DNA of 32,772 nucleotides from Bifidobacteriaceae bacterium (lineage in GTDB: Bacteria; Actinomycetota; Actinomycetes; Actinomycetales; WQXJ01), in NCBI GenBank assembly GCA_031255835.1, contig JAIRRT010000084.1, forward strand, positions 1 to 32,772, written 5' to 3'. Position numbers and translations under genes: made by a program. Below, in pieces: positions 11,399 through 26,664 of the stretch. How positions within the stretch are numbered: position 1 is the first letter of the stretch; every line of letters begins with the position of its first letter. The notes under the pieces were generated by a model. The model searched no databases. It had not been told where the DNA came from and saw only the letters and a program-made list of their open reading frames with translations.

Positions 11399-11430
11399 GG
11401 TGGGGGCCCGCCTTGCGACGGACCCCCACC
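11399..11430. terminator. Inverted repeat GGTGGGGG...CCCCCACC, probable terminator for the - strand coiled-coil operon
   Basis: 8-bp perfect stem plus 3 bp after a 1x1 mismatch; - strand continues TTGCTTTAA. Confidence 0.5.
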
Positions 11431-11571: not shown

Positions 11572-13473
11572 CTAGCGTCCGCGGGTTCGGCTCAGATCAC
11601 TGGCCACCAGGCGGCGCAAACGTGCCAGGTAGTGCTCCAGGGCAGAGCGGTTGCGTTCCAGCTGATCGACCTGTATGTGGGCCCGGGAGGTGACGCGCTC
11701 GGCCTCGGCTATGGCGTTGTCCATTGTGGCGGAGGAGTCGGCGTTGGCTGAGGCCAGGAGTTGATCGGCTTCCTCGCGGGCGGCCGCGAAGACGTGCTCT
11801 TGGTATTGCTCGGCGTGTTGGATCATGCGGTTGGCTTCTTCGCGGGCCTGGAGCAGACGGGCGGTGGCCTGGGCACGCCGCTCGGTTGGACCGATCAGAC
11901 GAGACTCGGCATCGGCGATTGACTTGGCGTTCCGGGTAGCGATCTGCGTGAGTGAACTCTCGACCTGTTGGGCGATCTGCCTCTCGACGGCCTCTTGGAA
12001 CTCACGTGCGGCGGCGATGACGGCCGTCGCCTGGGCGTAGGCCTGCTCCAGATGCGCTTTGGAATGGGCACGGCTCTCTGCCAGCAGCCTGGCGGCCCGG
12101 GTGCGGCCTTCTTCCAGCACGCCGCGGGCGTACTCCTCAGCCTCCGCGCGGACCTGCTCTGCATACTCCTGGGCCGCAGTCTTTGTGACAGTGGCCTTCT
12201 TGGAGGCGGCAGAGGCGACGGTGACTGCGTCAACCTCAGCGCGGGCACGTACGTCATTCGCGTACTCCAAGGCGTCCGAGCGGCGTTTGGAGGAATCGGC
12301 ATCGGCGGCTGAACGCTGGGTCTTGGCGAACTCTTCGGCGCGGGTGCGCTCTGTGCGCGACTCCTCTCCGGCCACAGAACGCTGGCGGGAGACATGCTCG
12401 GCTGATTCGTCTCTGACCTCGCGAGCGTAGCGATTTGCCTCAAGGAACAGAGTCTCGATCTCGGTGCGGGCGTCTTCCCTCAGCGCGGCAACCTCAGAAT
12501 CAACCGACCGCTTGACCGCGGCGAAGTGCTCGCGGGCAGCGCCCAGGGTCGCTGAAGTTTCAGTCTGGACCTGGTCCCGGATCAGTCCGGCGGCGGCATC
12601 GGCCTTGGATGTGACCCTGTCCACCTCGCGGCGCACCGAGCGGCGGATCCTGTCCGTGTCCTCGCGGGCACTGGTGAGCAGCGCGTCGATCTCGGCATCG
12701 GCGGTGGCCTGCTGGGTCTCGGCCTCGCGGCGGGCCGATTCAAGCGCGGCGTTGCCTTCCTCAATCGAAGCCTGACGAGTGGCCTCGGCCTGGGCTAGGG
12801 CGTCTGCCCGGATCGAGTTGGCTTGGGCCTCGGCATCGGTCACAAGCTGGGCGGCCTGGTCCCGGGCGGTGGCCACGGTGGCGTCCGCCGTGTTGCCGGT
12901 TTCGGCTCGCAGAGTCTCGATTTGCCGGTGGGTCATCGCCAGCAGCGACTCACGGTCCCGTAAAGCCCTGGCAGTCTCGCGCCGGGAGGTCTCCTCGGAT
13001 TCGGTTACCTGCGCCTCAGCGCTCTCGATCAGGTCTTCCAGGCGGCGCGCGACGTCGGCCTCAACCATGGCGGCGAAGTCCGCCGCTTGGCCCTTGCGCC
13101 TGCCTGGCACACGCCAGGAGGACTCTCGCAGTGAGGCGCGGGCCTCATCGAGTTGTTGCGCCAGACGATGGGCGTGGCCCTCCAGCCGTTCGATTTGGGC
13201 TTCCAGCCCGGCCAGTTCGCTGTGAGCAGAATCCGCCCCGTACCCAGGCTCACCGCCAAACCCAGGGCCAGCCTCCACGGCGAACCCAACACCATAGTCA
13301 CCGCCAAACTCAACCCCGCCAGGCCCATCGGCACCACGCCGGCTAGGCCGGGTACGGGTCTCCACAGTGGGTTGGTCAGACGCCTGTGGCACAGGCAATC
13401 GCGGCGCAGGAAGACCAGCGCCCGTCCCGAACGCCCCTGGTTCGGGACGTAGATCGGGATGCGGGTGGCTCAC
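11572..13473 (-). CDS. Long hendecad coiled-coil protein, Gly/Pro-rich N-terminus (Scy/FilP-like cytoskeletal candidate)
   Basis: 633 aa; 35 consecutive 11-residue units over residues 149-533; no DivIVA domain seen; GTG start. Confidence 0.85.
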   Translation of the reverse strand: MSHPHPDLRPEPGAFGTGAGLPAPRLPVPQASDQPTVETRTRPSRRGADGPGGVEFGGDYGVGFAVEAGPGFGGEPGYGADSAHSELAGLEAQIERLEGHAHRLAQQLDEARASLRESSWRVPGRRKGQAADFAAMVEADVARRLEDLIESAEAQVTESEETSRRETARALRDRESLLAMTHRQIETLRAETGNTADATVATARDQAAQLVTDAEAQANSIRADALAQAEATRQASIEEGNAALESARREAETQQATADAEIDALLTSAREDTDRIRRSVRREVDRVTSKADAAAGLIRDQVQTETSATLGAAREHFAAVKRSVDSEVAALREDARTEIETLFLEANRYAREVRDESAEHVSRQRSVAGEESRTERTRAEEFAKTQRSAADADSSKRRSDALEYANDVRARAEVDAVTVASAASKKATVTKTAAQEYAEQVRAEAEEYARGVLEEGRTRAARLLAESRAHSKAHLEQAYAQATAVIAAAREFQEAVERQIAQQVESSLTQIATRNAKSIADAESRLIGPTERRAQATARLLQAREEANRMIQHAEQYQEHVFAAAREEADQLLASANADSSATMDNAIAEAERVTSRAHIQVDQLERNRSALEHYLARLRRLVASDLSRTRGR

Positions 13474-13549
13474 CGGTTGCTCTCCGTGTTATCCAGGGTT
13501 GTATTCCGCATGATAAACACGCGGAGCCTCCACGTGCGTGAGACTCGCC

Positions 13550-15538
13550 CTACCGATCCTGACCTTCCTCCGAGACTGCGTTCCAAGTTGGGATCTCATC
13601 GAACAGAGCGCCAGAATCATCGACCTGTCCTGCGGCAGCCTGCGGCGCAACCTCGGGCTCATAGGCGCTCGCCTCATACTCCGAGACAGTCACCTCTTCG
13701 GTGTTCTGAGCCGTCAGCGGGACGTCCGGGCTGAAGTAGGCCGGTGGGGCCGGCGGTGCCGGAGCTTCGGGATCAACCAGAGGAGCCTCGACCTGGGCGC
13801 TGGCCTCGAGCACTGCCTCAACGTTGGGCAGCGGGGCTGAACCAAGCAGTCCGCGCAACTCTTCGAGGTAGACGGTGATCGATTCGCGCTGGCGGTTGAG
13901 ATCGTCAACCTGACGCTGGACGGTGATCTTCTGCCGCTCGGCCTCTTCGACAGCCTCGGACAGCGTGCGCTCGGCAAACGCCCTGGCATCGGCCAGGACC
14001 CTGTCCGCGTTGCGCCTGGCGTTGGCCAGCAGATCCGATGCCTGCTGATCGGCGTCATGGCGCAGCTTCTCGGCCCGAGCAAGGGCCTGAGCAACTCGCT
14101 CCTCGGCTTCATCGGCCCGGGCGGTTGCCTCAGCGACAAGCTGATCAGCCTTGGCCTTCGATGCCTCGAACCGCTCGGAGTTGGCAGCTTCAGCGGCCTC
14201 AACACGCTGGGCGATGTCGACCTCGGCCTGAGCTTTCCACTCCTCGGCCCGTTCGGTCAGAGCAGCAGCCTGCTTCTTGGCCTCAGCCAGCAACGTCGAA
14301 GCCTCGCGCTCGGACCGGGCAGTCAGCTCTTCAGCCTTCACGCGGGCCTCCTCGTAAACCTCAGACGCTGCCCGCTCAGCCTCAGCCCTCGTTGAAGATG
14401 CGTAGTGATCGGCGCTCTCGCGCAGCTCAATGGCCTCGCGGGATGTGGTGGACAGGAGGTCAGTAGCTTCACGCTCAGCAGTGGCGCGCAGCTCCTGGGC
14501 GGCAAGATCGGCTGCGGCACGGGTTGAAGTCTCGAAGGACTCAGCATCCGCCCTTGTCTGCTGGGCGTACTGCTCAGCCTCGGAACGGATCTGCAACGCG
14601 TACTGCTCGGCATCAGACCGCAGCTGTTGGGCGTACTGATCGGCCGCGGAGCGGGCTTGCTGTGCGTACTGATCGGCCGAGGAACGGCGCTCGGAGGCGT
14701 CAGCTTCAGAAGCAGAACGCTGTTCAGCAATCTCACGCTGGGCAGCTGCCCGAGTCTGAGCCGCATACTCCTCAGCAGCGGCCCGCAAAGACGAGGCCTC
14801 CTGCTCGGTAGCAAGACGCAACGCGGAAGTGTCGGCATCGGCGGATGCACGCAACTGGGTCGCATACTGCTCGGCATCTTCGCGCTGCTGGGCGACCTCC
14901 ACCGCGACGGTGGCCCGCAACTCCGATGCCTCACGCTCGGCAGCAACCCGCTGCTCGGTTGTCTCACGCTCAACCGTTGCCGTCAAAGCAGCGATCTCAC
15001 GCTCCAGAGCCGCCCGCCGCTCAGCTTCCTCAGTGGCGAGTTGGCTGACAACGCGAGCCGCCTCACGCTCGGCAGAGGAGACAAGCTCCTCAGCACGCCG
15101 CGAAGCGTTGGTCAACTCGGCCTCGGCCTCAGCTGATGCTCCTGATTGGATCTCTTCAGCCTCACGCCGAGCGGTGGCCAACAGCTCAGCCACCTGGTTC
15201 TCGACTTGGGCCTTCATTTGGTCGGTCTCCAGCTTGGTCCGAGCCAACAACGCTGAAGACTGGGACTTCGCTTGGTTGAGGACGTCTTGCGACTGTTCCT
15301 CCGCGGAGCGCATTAGCTGCTCGATGCGGGTGCCAAGACCGGAGTAACTCGGCCTCTCCACCTCCGCCATCTGCCGGCGCGACTCCGCCAGTTCTGCCGT
15401 CAGACTGGCGACCCGCGCGTCAAGATCCTGTACGCGCGCTCGTGCCTGTTCCAACGAACTTTCGATACTTGAGACGTGTTGGTCAACAGTGGCGCGGTCA
15501 TAACCGCGCACAGCAGTTGGGAAATCACGATCTGCCAC
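13550..15538 (-). CDS. DivIVA-domain long hendecad coiled-coil protein, paralog of the downstream gene
   Basis: 662 aa; N-term FPTAVRGYDRATVDQHVSSIE resembles DivIVA GYD...VD motif; 38 consecutive 11-residue units over residues 69-486; acidic/Pro-rich tail. Confidence 0.87.
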   Translation of the reverse strand: MADRDFPTAVRGYDRATVDQHVSSIESSLEQARARVQDLDARVASLTAELAESRRQMAEVERPSYSGLGTRIEQLMRSAEEQSQDVLNQAKSQSSALLARTKLETDQMKAQVENQVAELLATARREAEEIQSGASAEAEAELTNASRRAEELVSSAEREAARVVSQLATEEAERRAALEREIAALTATVERETTEQRVAAEREASELRATVAVEVAQQREDAEQYATQLRASADADTSALRLATEQEASSLRAAAEEYAAQTRAAAQREIAEQRSASEADASERRSSADQYAQQARSAADQYAQQLRSDAEQYALQIRSEAEQYAQQTRADAESFETSTRAAADLAAQELRATAEREATDLLSTTSREAIELRESADHYASSTRAEAERAASEVYEEARVKAEELTARSEREASTLLAEAKKQAAALTERAEEWKAQAEVDIAQRVEAAEAANSERFEASKAKADQLVAEATARADEAEERVAQALARAEKLRHDADQQASDLLANARRNADRVLADARAFAERTLSEAVEEAERQKITVQRQVDDLNRQRESITVYLEELRGLLGSAPLPNVEAVLEASAQVEAPLVDPEAPAPPAPPAYFSPDVPLTAQNTEEVTVSEYEASAYEPEVAPQAAAGQVDDSGALFDEIPTWNAVSEEGQDR
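14560..14710 (-). repeat. Degenerate 33-bp tandem repeats encoding (D/E)QYAQQxRSxA hendecads
   Basis: DQYAQQARSAA/DQYAQQLRSDA/EQYALQIRSEA/EQYAQQTRADA read in frame. Confidence 0.85.
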
Positions 15539-15737: not shown

Positions 15738-17828
15738 TTGGTGATTCGACGTTTCCTCGCACCCGCCCTCGTGGGGCTTGGGGCGTGCGTCATCCTGGCC
15801 GCGGTCGGCTCGGCCACACTGTGGCGCCCGCCTGACCACGCCACGGCTACCGCAACGGCCAAAGCTCCCCTGATGGCGGCCGTACCAGGCGTTATGGACG
15901 CCTTGGCCGACGATGTCGAGATCCGCATCGAGCCGCCCGATGACGTCGCGGTTGTGGCCGTCATCGGCCGCGATACGGATGTGGCGGCCTGGATTGGCGC
16001 CTCGCCAGCAACCTGGCTGACCGGTTTCGCTACGGCTGACGAATTCGCCACCGCCCCCAAGCCGCCAGACCCCACAGAATCAGCCGAGAGCGAACGGCGT
16101 GTCGCCACAGATTCATCCCCAACCCCTGAACCCGACGATGCCGTCCCACCAGCACCCGCCGAGGGTTCCGATTTGTGGATCTCGAGTCACCTGATTGAAG
16201 GCGAGGGCGTGATTGAGTGGCAGCGCCAGCCAGGCAGGTGGAGTTTGCTAATCGCCCCTGCCGGTGCTGCCCCGCCAGCCGATGCCTCCATTGCCGGCAC
16301 GGCGGTTTCGATGACGTGGCCGCGTGTGGTCACTACGCCGTTCTTGGTTCCAGGAATTGTTCTTGGCGCCGTGATGCTGGCTGCCGGAGTGGTTCTGTGG
16401 GTGCTTCTGCGCCGCCGCAGGGTTGCCAGTGCCGAGCCGCCTGGAGCTGTTGGCGGTGTGCGCGGCGGAGCAACTGGGATCGAGCGCGCTGCCGGAGCCG
16501 CAGGTTCGCCTGACGGGGTGCCTGAATTGGTGCCGGCCGGCGCGGCCCAAAGCGGGCCGGATGGTGCAGGCGGTGCGGGGGCCGGCTTGTTGGGGGCGAC
16601 GCTGGTATCGGGCCCGGACAGGACTGGCGCGGCTGAGTCGCCTGTTGATGAGGGTTCTGAGGCAGTGCACGATGGCGCGGCGCAAGGTGGCGACGGCTTG
16701 GTTGAGCCTGTGCGCCGTGTGCCGGCAACGGTGGATCCGGGACGGCGTTTCCCGTTGGAGGCCGGGCCAGCGGCCGCAGAGACGATGGAGATGTCCCCTG
16801 AGGCGATCATGGCTGCGGTGGAGGCCGGTGCAGTGGCCGGTTTGACGCGCCGTCAGATTCGTGAGGCACAGCAGCTGGTCGAGGCGCGCGCAAAGGCATC
16901 CAAGGCATCCGGCTCGGCAGGCCGCGGCGGACGCGGCCGGAGTGGGCCAGCTGCCGATGTCGCGAAACGGGCTCCTGATCAGGATCAGGTGGACGCGGCA
17001 TCGGACCTGGCAGAGCCAAAGGTGGAGGCGGCTGCGCCAGAGGTTGGGGGTCCGCAGGGTGCTGGGCTTGCGGGACCGCAGGTGCCGGAACAGAAGGCGG
17101 AGGGCCCGCAGGAGCCGGAAAAGAAGGTGGAGGGTACGGGGGAGCGTCAGGTACCGCCCGATCAGGCCGTGTTGGCGCCTGAATCCATCTTTGGCCCGGC
17201 AGGCGGGTTTGAGATGGCGGACAGCCAGCCGCTCGTGCCGCCCAGCCCACCAAGGCGCCAGGTGGAGGAGCCGCCAGTACAGCCGTCTCCTTCCCCTGAG
17301 GCGGATGAAACCGCAGGCAAAGGCCAACAACCGGTCACCCCGGGGTACTACGTTGCCGTCCCGGACCAGGCCGCACAGCCCACCCGGCCGAGCGCAGGTC
17401 CTGTGCCCGGACTGACTCCTGTCTTGCCGACCCCACCTGCGCGCCACGCGGACCACCGCGCTCCGGAACACCGGACCCCTGAGCACCGCACGCCTGACCA
17501 TCACGCACCTGAGCACCGCGGGGCCGATGCCGCCCGTGGAACGTGGAACACCGACGGGACGCCGCCCGTACCTGCCGGGGACGCCATCAGCCGCGCTCGC
17601 GGGTTCTTGGCATCGCTCTCGGACAGGCCGGGCACGGGAGGCAGGCCGCCGGCGCCGCGTCCCACGGTTCTTCCGCCGCCACCGCTTGGCGGACCCGGTC
17701 CGGCGCGTCCGGATGCTGGCGTGGAGGGTTCGCAGTTGCCGCCACCATCCCACTTTGTTTCGGCTCCGCCTGGGGCGGCGAGGCCCAAACCCCGGCCATC
17801 GAAGAACCCTGGGGAGGTGGAGAAGTGA
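15738..17828 (+). CDS. Membrane protein with two TM segments and a long disordered Pro-rich tail
   Basis: TM at N-term (LAPALVGLGACVILAAVGSATLW) and near residue 205 (VPGIVLGAVMLAAGVVLWVLLRRRR); GGAGGAG upstream; start TTG 15738 or GTG 15741. Confidence 0.8.
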   Translation: MVIRRFLAPALVGLGACVILAAVGSATLWRPPDHATATATAKAPLMAAVPGVMDALADDVEIRIEPPDDVAVVAVIGRDTDVAAWIGASPATWLTGFATADEFATAPKPPDPTESAESERRVATDSSPTPEPDDAVPPAPAEGSDLWISSHLIEGEGVIEWQRQPGRWSLLIAPAGAAPPADASIAGTAVSMTWPRVVTTPFLVPGIVLGAVMLAAGVVLWVLLRRRRVASAEPPGAVGGVRGGATGIERAAGAAGSPDGVPELVPAGAAQSGPDGAGGAGAGLLGATLVSGPDRTGAAESPVDEGSEAVHDGAAQGGDGLVEPVRRVPATVDPGRRFPLEAGPAAAETMEMSPEAIMAAVEAGAVAGLTRRQIREAQQLVEARAKASKASGSAGRGGRGRSGPAADVAKRAPDQDQVDAASDLAEPKVEAAAPEVGGPQGAGLAGPQVPEQKAEGPQEPEKKVEGTGERQVPPDQAVLAPESIFGPAGGFEMADSQPLVPPSPPRRQVEEPPVQPSPSPEADETAGKGQQPVTPGYYVAVPDQAAQPTRPSAGPVPGLTPVLPTPPARHADHRAPEHRTPEHRTPDHHAPEHRGADAARGTWNTDGTPPVPAGDAISRARGFLASLSDRPGTGGRPPAPRPTVLPPPPLGGPGPARPDAGVEGSQLPPPSHFVSAPPGAARPKPRPSKNPGEVEK
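17454..17519 (+). repeat. 15-bp tandem repeat encoding HR(A/T)PE units
   Basis: HRAPE-HRTPE-HRTPD-HHAPE-HR in frame within the 15738..17828 CDS. Confidence 0.9.
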
Positions 17829-18844
17829 AACCGCGACATGCCTTGACGCCGCCGGCCCGCTGGCGCGCAACGGCCCTGATTGCAGCGTGCGCAGTCTTGG
17901 CCGGCTGCTCCGGACCTCCGCCGGTAATCCATCCCGACCCGGTGCCGGCCGCGGCGCCCCCTGCTGTCCTCGAATTGCAGACCAGCCGGATCCTGGATGA
18001 CTTGTCCACCCAGTTGGCGCAGTCCGAGGCCAGCCAGTCAACGGCCGAGGTGACGAGGATCGGCGGGACGGCGTTGGAGATGCGAACAGCAGAATTCGCA
18101 ATGCACGCGGCCGATCCAGAAGAGGTCTCAAACGACGTTCTGGCCACAGAATTTGCTGGGACTGTTGTGCCAGCTACAACTGAATGGCCCCGCTCCTTTG
18201 TGGCGGTCACTACTCCAACCGACACAGGCGCCCAATACCTGTACGTTTTGACCCAAGCAGAGGCCCGCGCGCAATACGCAATGACTAGTTGGACACGCCT
18301 GCTAGCAGGTGTAACTCTGCCCGAGACCGCCCCGCCCGATGTCGGTAGCCCCACCCTCGCATTGGGTGAAGAAGGCGATTTGGCGCACACTCCCCAGGCC
18401 GCCTTGGCCAGTTATGCGGAAGCCAAAGATAATCCCGCCTCAGGGGCCGCAGGGTTGTTCGATGGCACAGACCCAGCCAGAGACGCATGGGTTGGCTTGA
18501 TTGAACGGTGGGGAGCCGCTTTGGAGCCAATTGAAGGGACGGTGGCACCGGCATCGTCGGCTGATACTGAGGGGGCTTACGTAATGGCGACGGCCGATGG
18601 CGGCGCGATAGTCCTCGGAACCATCCGCTCCGCTTTGACGTTGACCATTCCCGAAACACCCGGCCGGAGTTTTACTCTCGCACCGTACTTCGGGGCGCTG
18701 GGGGCGGCCAGTACCACTGTGACCAGGTCAGCTACCATCGAGTTCGCCCAACCGGTGGCGCTGGCCATCCCGCCCAAGGCCTCCGGCCAACCGGTCGCAG
18801 TGCTTGGCGTGGCGCAGGTGCCCGTGAAAGCCACAACAGAATGA
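17825..18844 (+). CDS. Lipoprotein of a conserved actinobacterial family
   Basis: GTG at 17825 overlaps upstream stop; lipobox LAGC in VKPRHALTPPARWRATALIAACAVLAGCSG; the listed ORF from 17543 overextends upstream. Confidence 0.8.
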   Translation: MKPRHALTPPARWRATALIAACAVLAGCSGPPPVIHPDPVPAAAPPAVLELQTSRILDDLSTQLAQSEASQSTAEVTRIGGTALEMRTAEFAMHAADPEEVSNDVLATEFAGTVVPATTEWPRSFVAVTTPTDTGAQYLYVLTQAEARAQYAMTSWTRLLAGVTLPETAPPDVGSPTLALGEEGDLAHTPQAALASYAEAKDNPASGAAGLFDGTDPARDAWVGLIERWGAALEPIEGTVAPASSADTEGAYVMATADGGAIVLGTIRSALTLTIPETPGRSFTLAPYFGALGAASTTVTRSATIEFAQPVALAIPPKASGQPVAVLGVAQVPVKATTE

Positions 18845-24069: not shown

Positions 24070-26664
24070 CTACAGCAGTCCTTCGTCGTGCACGCCCACC
24101 TGGTCGAGTTCTATGCGTCCGCCCTGCTTGCGCCAGAAGTGGAGCTGCCTAGCGGCCGGTGCGCCGCGCTGCAACGCCACCCGCATCGCCACAGCGCCAT
24201 CGTCGCGTTTGCGAGTTGGAGAACCGCCAGCCGAGCTGGAACGCAGCCGGTGCATTGTCCGTCCGTGAGAATCCTTTGCCCGCTTCACCAACACCTCGAC
24301 GATGACGGTCAGCACCTTTTCACGCGGGATTCCTTGTAGCTTTTCCAGCGACGCCAGGAAATTGGGCCCCACATCATATTCAGGCAGAGGGTACGTGTCT
24401 TTCTCATCAGGCAAGATATGCAATGCCCAAGCTAAAGAAATCTCCCAGCGAAGTTGATCCACCGGATCGGCGAATTTGTCTGCAACTTGCTCCCAGATGC
24501 TGGCAGGAGAGGCGGCCGGCTGATTGTGAACGGCATCGCGCAAACCGCGTGACTGCTCCCGGGCGTGACGGAGCATTGTGCGCAGACGCTCCACTTGCCG
24601 CTCCGTGGCGTTTCCCCTGGCGGCCACTTGGTCGAACTCTTCGGACAGTCTGGCAAATTCGCGCCTGAGCCCCTCGACTTGTTCATGTGCCCTGGCCTCG
24701 CGGCCTTCCGCCACCTCGGCCCGGTTCTTGTACGCGCCAACCAGGTTCTCGACCTCAACCAGCGTCAGGCCACTGGCTTCCCCGATGGTGAACGGTCCGG
24801 CTCCTGCGGGGCGAGTGGGCGGTGATTCGCCGTCCTGGCCTGGACCGGGTCGCGGCCGAGCCACCCGTGCGCCTGGCGGGGGAGTAGGGACAGGGCCAGG
24901 TTTGGCCGCAGGTTGGACAGCCTGAGGGGCGGGGGATTCCTGCGCGGGGGTCGGTTCGCCAACTGCTGTGGCGCCCACTTCGGCAGCCGGAGCCTGCCCG
25001 GGCACGCTAGCAAGCCAGGCCCCGGGAACTGGAGCCTGGGCCGGCCCCGGTGCGGGCTGGCCCGCTTGGCCAGGCACGCCAGGAAGCCCGGCGCCTGGAG
25101 TGGGGGGTTGGACTGCCGCCGGCGTGGGCTGGCCGGCCGCATCCGCTTTACCAGGTACAGCGCCAGGGATCTGGGGTACCCCAGGCGGCGGGAGTGGCGC
25201 CGGAGCGCCGGCTGGCCGCCCTGCCCGCCGAGGCCCTGGACGCGGGCCCGGCTTTGGCGCACTCGGAGCATCACCAGCGCCCGCGACAGCCCCACCTGGG
25301 ATTCCACTCGGCCCAGGGACGCCGCCTGGTCCCGGGACCCCGGGCGTACCGGGGACCCCAGTTGCCCCACTGACCCCAGGGGCCCCGTCGCCAACCCCTG
25401 CCGCACCTGCCGCACCTGCCCCACCAGGCTGCGGGGCATCGGGCGGGGGTGGAGGCGGAGGAGGGGTGTAAGGGACGCCGGCCTTGCGGGCCGCCATCCG
25501 GGCGCTGAGTTCGCGTGGGCTCGGACCAACCCGGCGCGCCGCCACCTGCTGCGCACCGCCGCCCACCCCGCCGGGTGCACCGGCACCGGGTAGGGGAGGG
25601 ACGGCATCGGCGGGGAGCTTTGGGGTTGGAGGGGGCGGGGGAGGCTCGGGGGGCGGAGGCGGGTTGATCCATGGGGGGCCGCCGGGCAGGAGGCTGGGGG
25701 CGGTGCGCGGGGAGTCGGTCGAGGTGACGTCATCCATGCGCAGGGTCAGCGGGTCCAACTCCACCAGGCGGACGCTCACAACCTCACCGGGGGAGAACAG
25801 GTCCGTCAGCTCGCCCGTGGCACCGGTCTCCTCGGCGGTGAGTTTGAGTTCGATGCCGGGATACGGGCTGACCGTGATGCTGCCAACGTGCGTGCGCACC
25901 ACCCGCGCGAGGATCACATCCCCGGGTTGGTAGGTGGCTAGCGCCTGGTCAGCCGGGATAAGGCTCGTACGCACGTCCAAGCGCTTGGCCCGCTGGTCAA
26001 CTATCCCCTCGACCTTCTGGCCTGCCCGGACAAGGTCGCCAATCTGGACACCCGCCACGGTCAGCTCGGAGGAGATTGTCACCCACACGCCGCTGTCGAG
26101 TTCAACCATTGCCCGCTGGGTGACGTGCCCCTTGACCACGCCGGATGCCCGCACGGCGGCCCGCCGGGTCGGCTTGGGGCCGGCCATGATCCCCGAGGCC
26201 AGCGCGAAACTCATGGCGTCGGATATGAGGGTGTCGGTCACATCGCTGGCGGCCTCGCGGCGCAACACAAAGCGCAACGGCGAGGAGTGCGGGTCGGTCT
26301 GCCAGGTCGGCGTGGCCGGATAGACGCGGCCGGCGCCGCCGTAGACCTGGGTCATCGAGGGCAGCGCGTCAGCCAACCGCCAGGACAGCGCGCCCGTCGG
26401 CACCACCCAAACCTGGGCGAAATCGCCAACTTCCTGGGCAATCCTGTCTGCTTCGATCCAGGTTTCCGTCTCGCCTTGGCGGGTCGATACCACCACAACA
26501 GGCTGCGTGCGGCGCGGGTCAAGCAGCAGCGACGTCAACTGTGCCACGTCGGATTCCGAGGCGATGTGCCGGACGCCGAGCCCATCCATCTGCGCACTCA
26601 CCTCACGTGTGGGATTCGCCCCTGCCGATTGACCTGGCAATCCTAGACCCCGCCGCTGCGCCAA
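24070..26664 (-). CDS. Multidomain protein: unknown N-terminal domain, two S1/OB-like segments, polyproline, collagen-like Gly-X-Y, coiled coil, conserved C-terminal domain
   Basis: Segments read from the translation; VVKGHVTQRAMVELDSGVWVTI and GDVILARVVRTHVGSITVS are S1/OB-like. Confidence 0.8.
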   Translation of the reverse strand: MAQRRGLGLPGQSAGANPTREVSAQMDGLGVRHIASESDVAQLTSLLLDPRRTQPVVVVSTRQGETETWIEADRIAQEVGDFAQVWVVPTGALSWRLADALPSMTQVYGGAGRVYPATPTWQTDPHSSPLRFVLRREAASDVTDTLISDAMSFALASGIMAGPKPTRRAAVRASGVVKGHVTQRAMVELDSGVWVTISSELTVAGVQIGDLVRAGQKVEGIVDQRAKRLDVRTSLIPADQALATYQPGDVILARVVRTHVGSITVSPYPGIELKLTAEETGATGELTDLFSPGEVVSVRLVELDPLTLRMDDVTSTDSPRTAPSLLPGGPPWINPPPPPEPPPPPPTPKLPADAVPPLPGAGAPGGVGGGAQQVAARRVGPSPRELSARMAARKAGVPYTPPPPPPPPDAPQPGGAGAAGAAGVGDGAPGVSGATGVPGTPGVPGPGGVPGPSGIPGGAVAGAGDAPSAPKPGPRPGPRRAGRPAGAPAPLPPPGVPQIPGAVPGKADAAGQPTPAAVQPPTPGAGLPGVPGQAGQPAPGPAQAPVPGAWLASVPGQAPAAEVGATAVGEPTPAQESPAPQAVQPAAKPGPVPTPPPGARVARPRPGPGQDGESPPTRPAGAGPFTIGEASGLTLVEVENLVGAYKNRAEVAEGREARAHEQVEGLRREFARLSEEFDQVAARGNATERQVERLRTMLRHAREQSRGLRDAVHNQPAASPASIWEQVADKFADPVDQLRWEISLAWALHILPDEKDTYPLPEYDVGPNFLASLEKLQGIPREKVLTVIVEVLVKRAKDSHGRTMHRLRSSSAGGSPTRKRDDGAVAMRVALQRGAPAARQLHFWRKQGGRIELDQVGVHDEGLL

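Follow-up and report, generated by a model that had tools for sequence, protein, structure and literature searches.

A probable FilP-family coiled-coil protein and a length-matched putative paralogue without a DivIVA-like cap in a Bifidobacteriaceae bacterium

The analysed stretch of DNA (hereafter the window; 32,772 nucleotides, contig JAIRRT010000084.1) encodes two very long, straight coiled-coil rod proteins, here called A and B. Judged from its sequence, A almost certainly belongs to the FilP branch of the FilP/Scy group, and B is very probably a paralogue of A. Between the first coil and the end of the rod, B is collinear with A and of the same net length; the cap and the C-terminal tail of A are both missing from it. 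A is thus a new member of the already known FilP kind, an ordinary long one. The pair is a new variant, a length-matched FilP paralogue without the cap. It is only modestly surprising, since lineage-specific duplicates are already common in the superfamily of FilP, Scy and DivIVA type (PMC9858780). The host is likely an uncultured actinobacterium of termite-gut origin.

Genomic locus and periodicity of the two proteins

Both minus-strand reading frames given in a preliminary description of the window are present as described there. An overview of the locus is given in Table 1. A and B share an apparent operon. A terminator-like hairpin was looked for between the two genes and none was found. 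The F-type ATP synthase operon, nucS and an exonuclease-like gene are located nearby. Beyond A, the opposite strand encodes two proteins without Pfam matches and a thioredoxin-TPR protein, followed by a glycogen-phosphorylase-like gene. The order trx-orf433-orf696-A is conserved in Cellulomonadaceae, Promicromonosporaceae and their relatives. In two Streptomyces genomes, scy adjoins filP, and nucS and the atp operon are found further on, in the same order as at the A/B locus. The genome has its own DivIVA elsewhere (225 aa, with REGYDQVEVDD), flanked by sepF-like and YggT-like ORFs; the sepF-yggT neighbourhood is thus occupied by this protein and not found at A. A Scy family search of the genome gave no match, and MreB was not found in this 90%-complete genome, where the sole match to an MreB model is weak, below the cut-off and located in a 619-aa frame.

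Table 1 Features of the A/B locus (window positions; residues refer to the respective protein)
Feature	Position	Strand	Remarks
Gene A	13550..15538	-	662 aa, FilP-family coiled-coil protein (probable), GTG start
A, DivIVA-like cap, residues 1-19	15482..15538	-	ADRDFPTAVRGYDRATVD; RGYDxxEVD motif; Pfam DivIVA
A, first coiled coil, residues 15-61	15356..15496	-	predicted helix 15-61; B matches at offset 58
A, hinge, residues 62-66	15341..15355	-	inside conserved ERPSYSGLG; helix break in model
A, single-register hendecad block, residues 68-432	14243..15337	-	~33 units; Fourier analysis and register model
33-bp DNA tandem array	14557..14687	-	4.0 copies, 73% matches, no indels; within the hendecad block of A
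A, C-terminal rod, residues 433-567	13838..14242	-	after +4/+8 register shifts; ends QRQVDDLNRQRESITVYLEELRGLLG
A, Pro/acidic tail, residues 568-662	13553..13837	-	pLDDT mostly <50; probably disordered
Gene B	11572..13473	-	633 aa, probable paralogue of A without cap; same strand, 76 bp downstream of it
B, N-terminal extension, residues 1-80	13234..13473	-	low complexity, low confidence, no RGYD motif
B, first coiled coil, residues 81-119	13117..13233	-	predicted helix; offset 58 to A
B, hinge WRVPGRRK, residues 120-127	13093..13116	-	model; WR-PGRR-GQ nearly invariant
B, long single-register hendecad block, residues 138-492	11998..13062	-	~32 units; boundaries approximate
B, C-terminal rod, residues 493-632	11578..11997	-	homologous to A 435-567; conserved Gly-Pro 528-529
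Terminator-like hairpin	11399..11430	-	14-bp stem, downstream of B

The 11-residue periodicity of A and B is real and far above chance. Fourier analysis of hydrophobicity and of a core-residue indicator over the spans previously proposed (A 69-486, B 149-533) gives a peak at 3.66-3.67 residues with a power of 17-23 in both proteins. The 99% quantile of shuffled-sequence maxima is 8-9, and at the heptad period of 3.5 the power does not exceed about 3. The preference for a period of 3.67 over 3.5 is therefore borne out, and position 11 is mostly Ala as described (about 0.6-0.75 in the register models).

Register was assigned with a circular, 11-state model that was trained on orthologues from Cellulomonadaceae and Promicromonosporaceae and on Streptomyces Scy, with the family of the window excluded. 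In A, a single register runs over about 65-432 and is followed by shifts of +4 at 432/433 and +8 at 476/477. Phase changes of +4 and +8 are what one and two heptads, respectively, produce among hendecads; the steps in A are accordingly of heptad type. In B, a single register extends over about 138-492, with a +4 shift near 493 and another jump at ~528-533 across the whole B family; these shifts fall near positions equivalent to those of A. The exact boundaries in B, including the N-terminal one, vary with model and penalty. They are to be read as approximate, since decoding of the B family alignment breaks into short segments under a weak penalty on register jumps. The 11-mers of the preliminary description do fall at the residues where it placed them, but its gap-free single register over the full spans does not hold: one register covers about 33 and 32 units in A and B, not 38 and 35, and heptad-size shifts lie inside both spans, in which it had seen no 7-residue inserts.

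The same description had contrasted the uninterrupted hendecads of the pair with the mixed hendecads and heptads of Scy and FilP. A is no departure from Scy/FilP, however, but very probably a FilP-family protein itself, and the long run is not special to this pair. Nearly all orthologues in the order show a long register followed by the same +4 and +8 shifts as A, and the heptad-type steps are thus conserved in their register decodings. Their longest registers span about 145-470 residues; for the FilP family in this order, unbroken hendecad blocks reaching about 470 residues are thus nothing unusual. What sets the pair apart is B, which is collinear with A, has the same rod length, carries no cap and is confined to one family. 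In the same model, Streptomyces FilP has a short single-register block of about 100 residues. Streptomyces Scy decodes into 16-21 segments with one shift per about 50-60 residues, +4 being the commonest, in keeping with the 51-residue repeat published for it (PMC3718342). Such a Scy-type repeat, in which a heptad interrupts the hendecads once per 51 residues or so, was found in neither A nor B, whose single registers extend over about 365 and 355 residues.

Separate short helices had been named earlier as a finding that would speak against continuous coils. Single-chain predictions instead give long helices, with moderate confidence (14 sequences each, mean pLDDT 75 for A and 73 for B). A is predicted as a short N-terminal element, a helix 15-61, a hinge break, a single helix 66-567 (with a rise of 0.149 nm per residue, about 75 nm long) and a disordered tail. 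For B, helices 81-119, 127-389 and 394-632 are predicted, with a low-confidence break near 390.

Family assignment and relationship of A and B

The RGYDxxEVD motif was defined for DivIVA, GpsB, FilP and Scy by Martinez-Goikoetxea and Lupas (PMC9858780), who describe the FilP/Scy coils as dimeric with Ala-rich cores. A carries it as RGYDRATVD (residues 11-19), in which T replaces the usual E and the remaining positions agree. Its N-terminus reaches 29.1 bits with Pfam DivIVA (cut-off 28), and its profile matches solved GpsB N-termini. The motif is followed by a short first coil, a hinge and a long Ala-rich hendecad rod, and FilP homology extends over the hinge and C-end at a conserved genomic position. 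The assignment to FilP rests on the cap, the Pfam match, the hinge and C-end, the homologues, the conserved neighbours and the synteny with Streptomyces. Scy/FilP had been suggested as the closest analogy, which is apt to the extent that A itself very probably is a FilP. Of 248 genomes sampled from the order, 174 have a homologue of A; at class level, a profile search detected homologues in 138 of 247 genomes. In an alignment of 16 A orthologues, the cap residues R11, G12, Y13, V18 and D19 and the hinge residues P63, Y65, G67 and G69 are invariant; common to these orthologues are the cap, the PSYSGLG hinge and the C-end QRQVDDLNRQRESIT-YL-ELR-LLG.

FilP shares with A the RGYD motif, the first coil, the Ala-rich hendecad rod, a rod length of 4 mod 11 and the nucS-atp neighbourhood. 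The hinges read PSYAGLGAR in FilP and PSYSGLGTR in A, and the C-ends RRDSINAQL and QRESITVYL. In contrast to Streptomyces FilP, A has 488 instead of 202 rod residues between the anchors and a long acidic/Pro C-tail, and it is followed by the paralogue B, whereas the Streptomyces gene is preceded by scy. Scy resembles A and B in its long hendecad coiled coil, encoded beside filP in the same chromosomal neighbourhood. It differs in its length of about 1130-1600 aa (Streptomyces frames), its heptad-type shifts every ~50-60 residues and its RGY motif. DivIVA, Wag31 and GpsB are similar to A only, by the DivIVA-like N-terminal motif and the coil after it; A is far longer and has a hendecad rod. PolyDIV proteins contain 2-8 copies of the DivIVA-like domain (PMC9858780); A, which shares the motif, has one and B has none. 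Matches of A to apolipoproteins (Pfam, PDB) were rejected, as they stay under the Pfam cut-off and are explained by a shared 11/22-residue amphipathic periodicity.

Of the HMM searches proposed earlier for Scy and DivIVA, only the Pfam DivIVA match of A passed. With the NCBIfam Scy model NF041483 (cut-off 1040 bits), A scores 41.6 and B 19.7 bits, and with the DivIVA/Wag31 model NF050102 (cut-off 260 bits), A scores 36.0 bits. The DivIVA-like N-terminus and the partial match to the latter model could be taken to mean that A is a second DivIVA/Wag31 and not a FilP. This reading is hardly credible: the score lies far below 260 bits, the separate 225-aa DivIVA beside the sepF-like and YggT-like ORFs contradicts it, and the hinge, rod and C-end of A are common to FilP. 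A and B could be unrelated and alike only as Ala/Glu/Arg hendecads. Profile comparison of the two gives E 4e-38 over 554 columns, a score inflated by repeat composition (A even matches apolipoprotein models), and the A-B branch is saturated. The stretches 20-59, 66-431 and 477-566 of A, however, each select the identical offset of 58 to B as the best of all offsets. Compared with phase-preserving shuffles, the similarity at this offset reaches z 3.6, 4.9 and 6.7, respectively, and 13.1 over 66-566; the hinge region 60-100 of A gives no signal over such shuffles. The non-hendecad ends, inspected with chance resemblance in mind, align at the common offset as well. First coil, hinge and C-end follow in the same order, and the register shifts lie near equivalent positions. 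An origin without common ancestry is accordingly very improbable, and the paralogy proposed in the preliminary description holds up. In the tree, A and B of the window's family are each monophyletic. The branch between them, with about 10 changes per column, is saturated, so the tree gives no date for the duplication.

B shows the coil-hinge-rod-C-end architecture homologous to the FilP/Scy group with a WR-PGRR-GQ hinge of its own. It was filed as a capless paralogue and not classed as FilP. As described earlier, a DivIVA-like N-terminus is present on the 662-aa protein only: the RGYDxxEVD motif was found neither in the window's B nor in the aligned B orthologues that have N-termini. Most other genera of the family have a short version of the B extension (residues 1-80) or none. 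Among the genomes sampled from the order, B is found beside A in the window's family only, and matches elsewhere fall on A orthologues.

Possible roles of A and B

FilP self-assembles into filaments, and DivIVA recruits FilP to the subapical zone. Streptomyces FilP forms 37-nm rods, which were proposed to be parallel dimers; the rods assemble into protofilaments that show a 60-nm striation (PMC6599971). Recruitment by DivIVA is documented, and deletion of scy or filP alters hyphal shape (PMC6599971, PMC11571769). By analogy, a polar cytoskeletal role of A is quite probable, and membership in the FilP family combined with a function as polar scaffold can be expected with reasonable confidence. 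A would dimerise in parallel to a rod of roughly 75-80 nm, and the separate DivIVA of the genome would hold it near the poles via its cap, an interaction extrapolated from Streptomyces. Polymerised A could build a network underpinning wall growth at the poles. B, of equal length and unable to dock, might join A either by forming heterodimers or as B dimers packed alongside, and thereby set the spacing or extent of the A network, in the simplest case by diluting or spacing docking sites in mixed polymers. For co-assembly of B with A, suggested by the shared apparent operon, the occurrence of B in a single family, the matched length and the homology, the chances appear evenly balanced. B could also act alone. 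The equal length may reflect only common ancestry and slow length change, as rods in the order rarely change length.

Two other explanations of B have to be weighed. Given that scy nearly always neighbours filP (PMC4255298), that both are found in the same neighbourhood in two Streptomyces genomes and that the hendecad-rich coil of Scy binds ParA (PMC3718342), B could be the functional counterpart of Scy, with a role in pole organisation and ParA recruitment, beside A as FilP. B is about half as long as Scy, however, scores 19.7 bits where the Scy model demands 1040, and lies downstream of A whereas scy lies upstream of filP. Scy also keeps the RGY motif and shifts register every ~50-60 residues, in contrast to the motif-free single long register of B; an equivalence in function is thus improbable. 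Alternatively, B could be a decaying duplicate with little function, retained by chance. B is about 31-43% and A about 70-76% identical to the respective orthologues from the remaining genera of the family, from which it follows that B evolves much faster. Decay is expected to accumulate indels and stops, but aligned B orthologues show zero indels from the first coil to the C-end. The W-R-PGRR-GQ hinge and the C-end are conserved among them, and B is present next to A in the genomes of the family with adequate contigs. Chance retention is therefore a still weaker candidate than a Scy counterpart, and B as a partner of A is the preferred reading. FilP and Scy, studied mainly in Streptomyces, raise the question of what sets filament spacing there; nature here provides two rods of the same length, of which only one carries the presumed docking cap, so that docking can be told apart from polymerisation.

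Rod length in the FilP family

The FilP rod is described as gradually expanded by hendecads, with nothing further on its length (PMC9858780), and no statement of an 11-residue length rule was found in the FilP/Scy literature consulted. With strict anchors, the length from hinge to C-end equals 4 mod 11 in 96 of 96 distinct orthologues, which are related sequences and hence not independent counts. Their lengths take 14 values, the shortest being 202 (Streptomyces FilP) and the longest 587, with A at 488, and thus imply at least 13 length changes. FilP-like frames of 900-1400 aa from family f10, whose sequences did not match the anchor motif pattern, are excluded from the count. When the anchors are loosened and class-level loci included, further fitting lengths and two exceptions appear, L029 (261, 8 mod 11) and L201 (447, 7 mod 11), both of which deviate by what one or two heptads would give.

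Such quantisation of length in 11-residue steps across the class is a testable geometric rule, and it makes rods between about 200 and 590 residues long comparable for axial repeat and stiffness. A more far-reaching proposal, tentative and rather doubtful, is that A and B would form an obligate or preferred two-component polymer of intermediate-filament type with in-register rods of equal length, only one kind of them able to dock, in which the A:B ratio sets the polar docking density, and that FilP rods in general would act as a ruler adjusted in 11-residue steps by gain or loss of 33-bp repeats. The 33-bp tandem array of A is located in a block that is missing from shorter relatives, and it is a plausible source of gain and loss of 11-residue units.

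Repeat units and rod length

Hendecads of the DQYAQQ-R-S-A type in A, the 662-aa FilP-family protein, are the coding product of a tandem DNA array with a 33-bp unit, which suggests that rods may lengthen or shorten by gain or loss of this unit. The rule that rod length (hinge to C-end) is 4 mod 11 residues is broken by two FilP relatives (L029 and L201), each deviation having the size of one or two heptads. At loci L194-L199, all from family f10, there are open frames that resemble FilP and span roughly 900-1400 aa. Both ends of these frames match A, and they were not picked up by the motif search.

Location of the features in the window
Feature	Position	Strand	Remarks
A (filP)	13550-15538	-	
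33-bp tandem array	14557-14687		4.0 copies, 73% matches, no indels
orf696 and orf433	15738-18844	+	adjoin filP divergently
864-aa ORF	24070-26664	-	flanked by nucleoside-phosphorylase-like and adenosine-deaminase-like genes

Apolipoprotein matches

A is also matched by apolipoprotein A/E profiles from both Pfam and PDB. This identity was rejected, as the matches stem from the common 11/22-residue amphipathic periodicity; they are a pitfall for automatic annotation.

Other ORFs

The 864-aa ORF had no match in the Pfam search. orf696 encodes membrane segments and a Pro-rich tail, while orf433, which probably starts near 17830, contains the lipoprotein-like sequence LAGCSGPP. Although neither had a Pfam match at the cut-off applied, their divergent placement beside filP is kept across the order.
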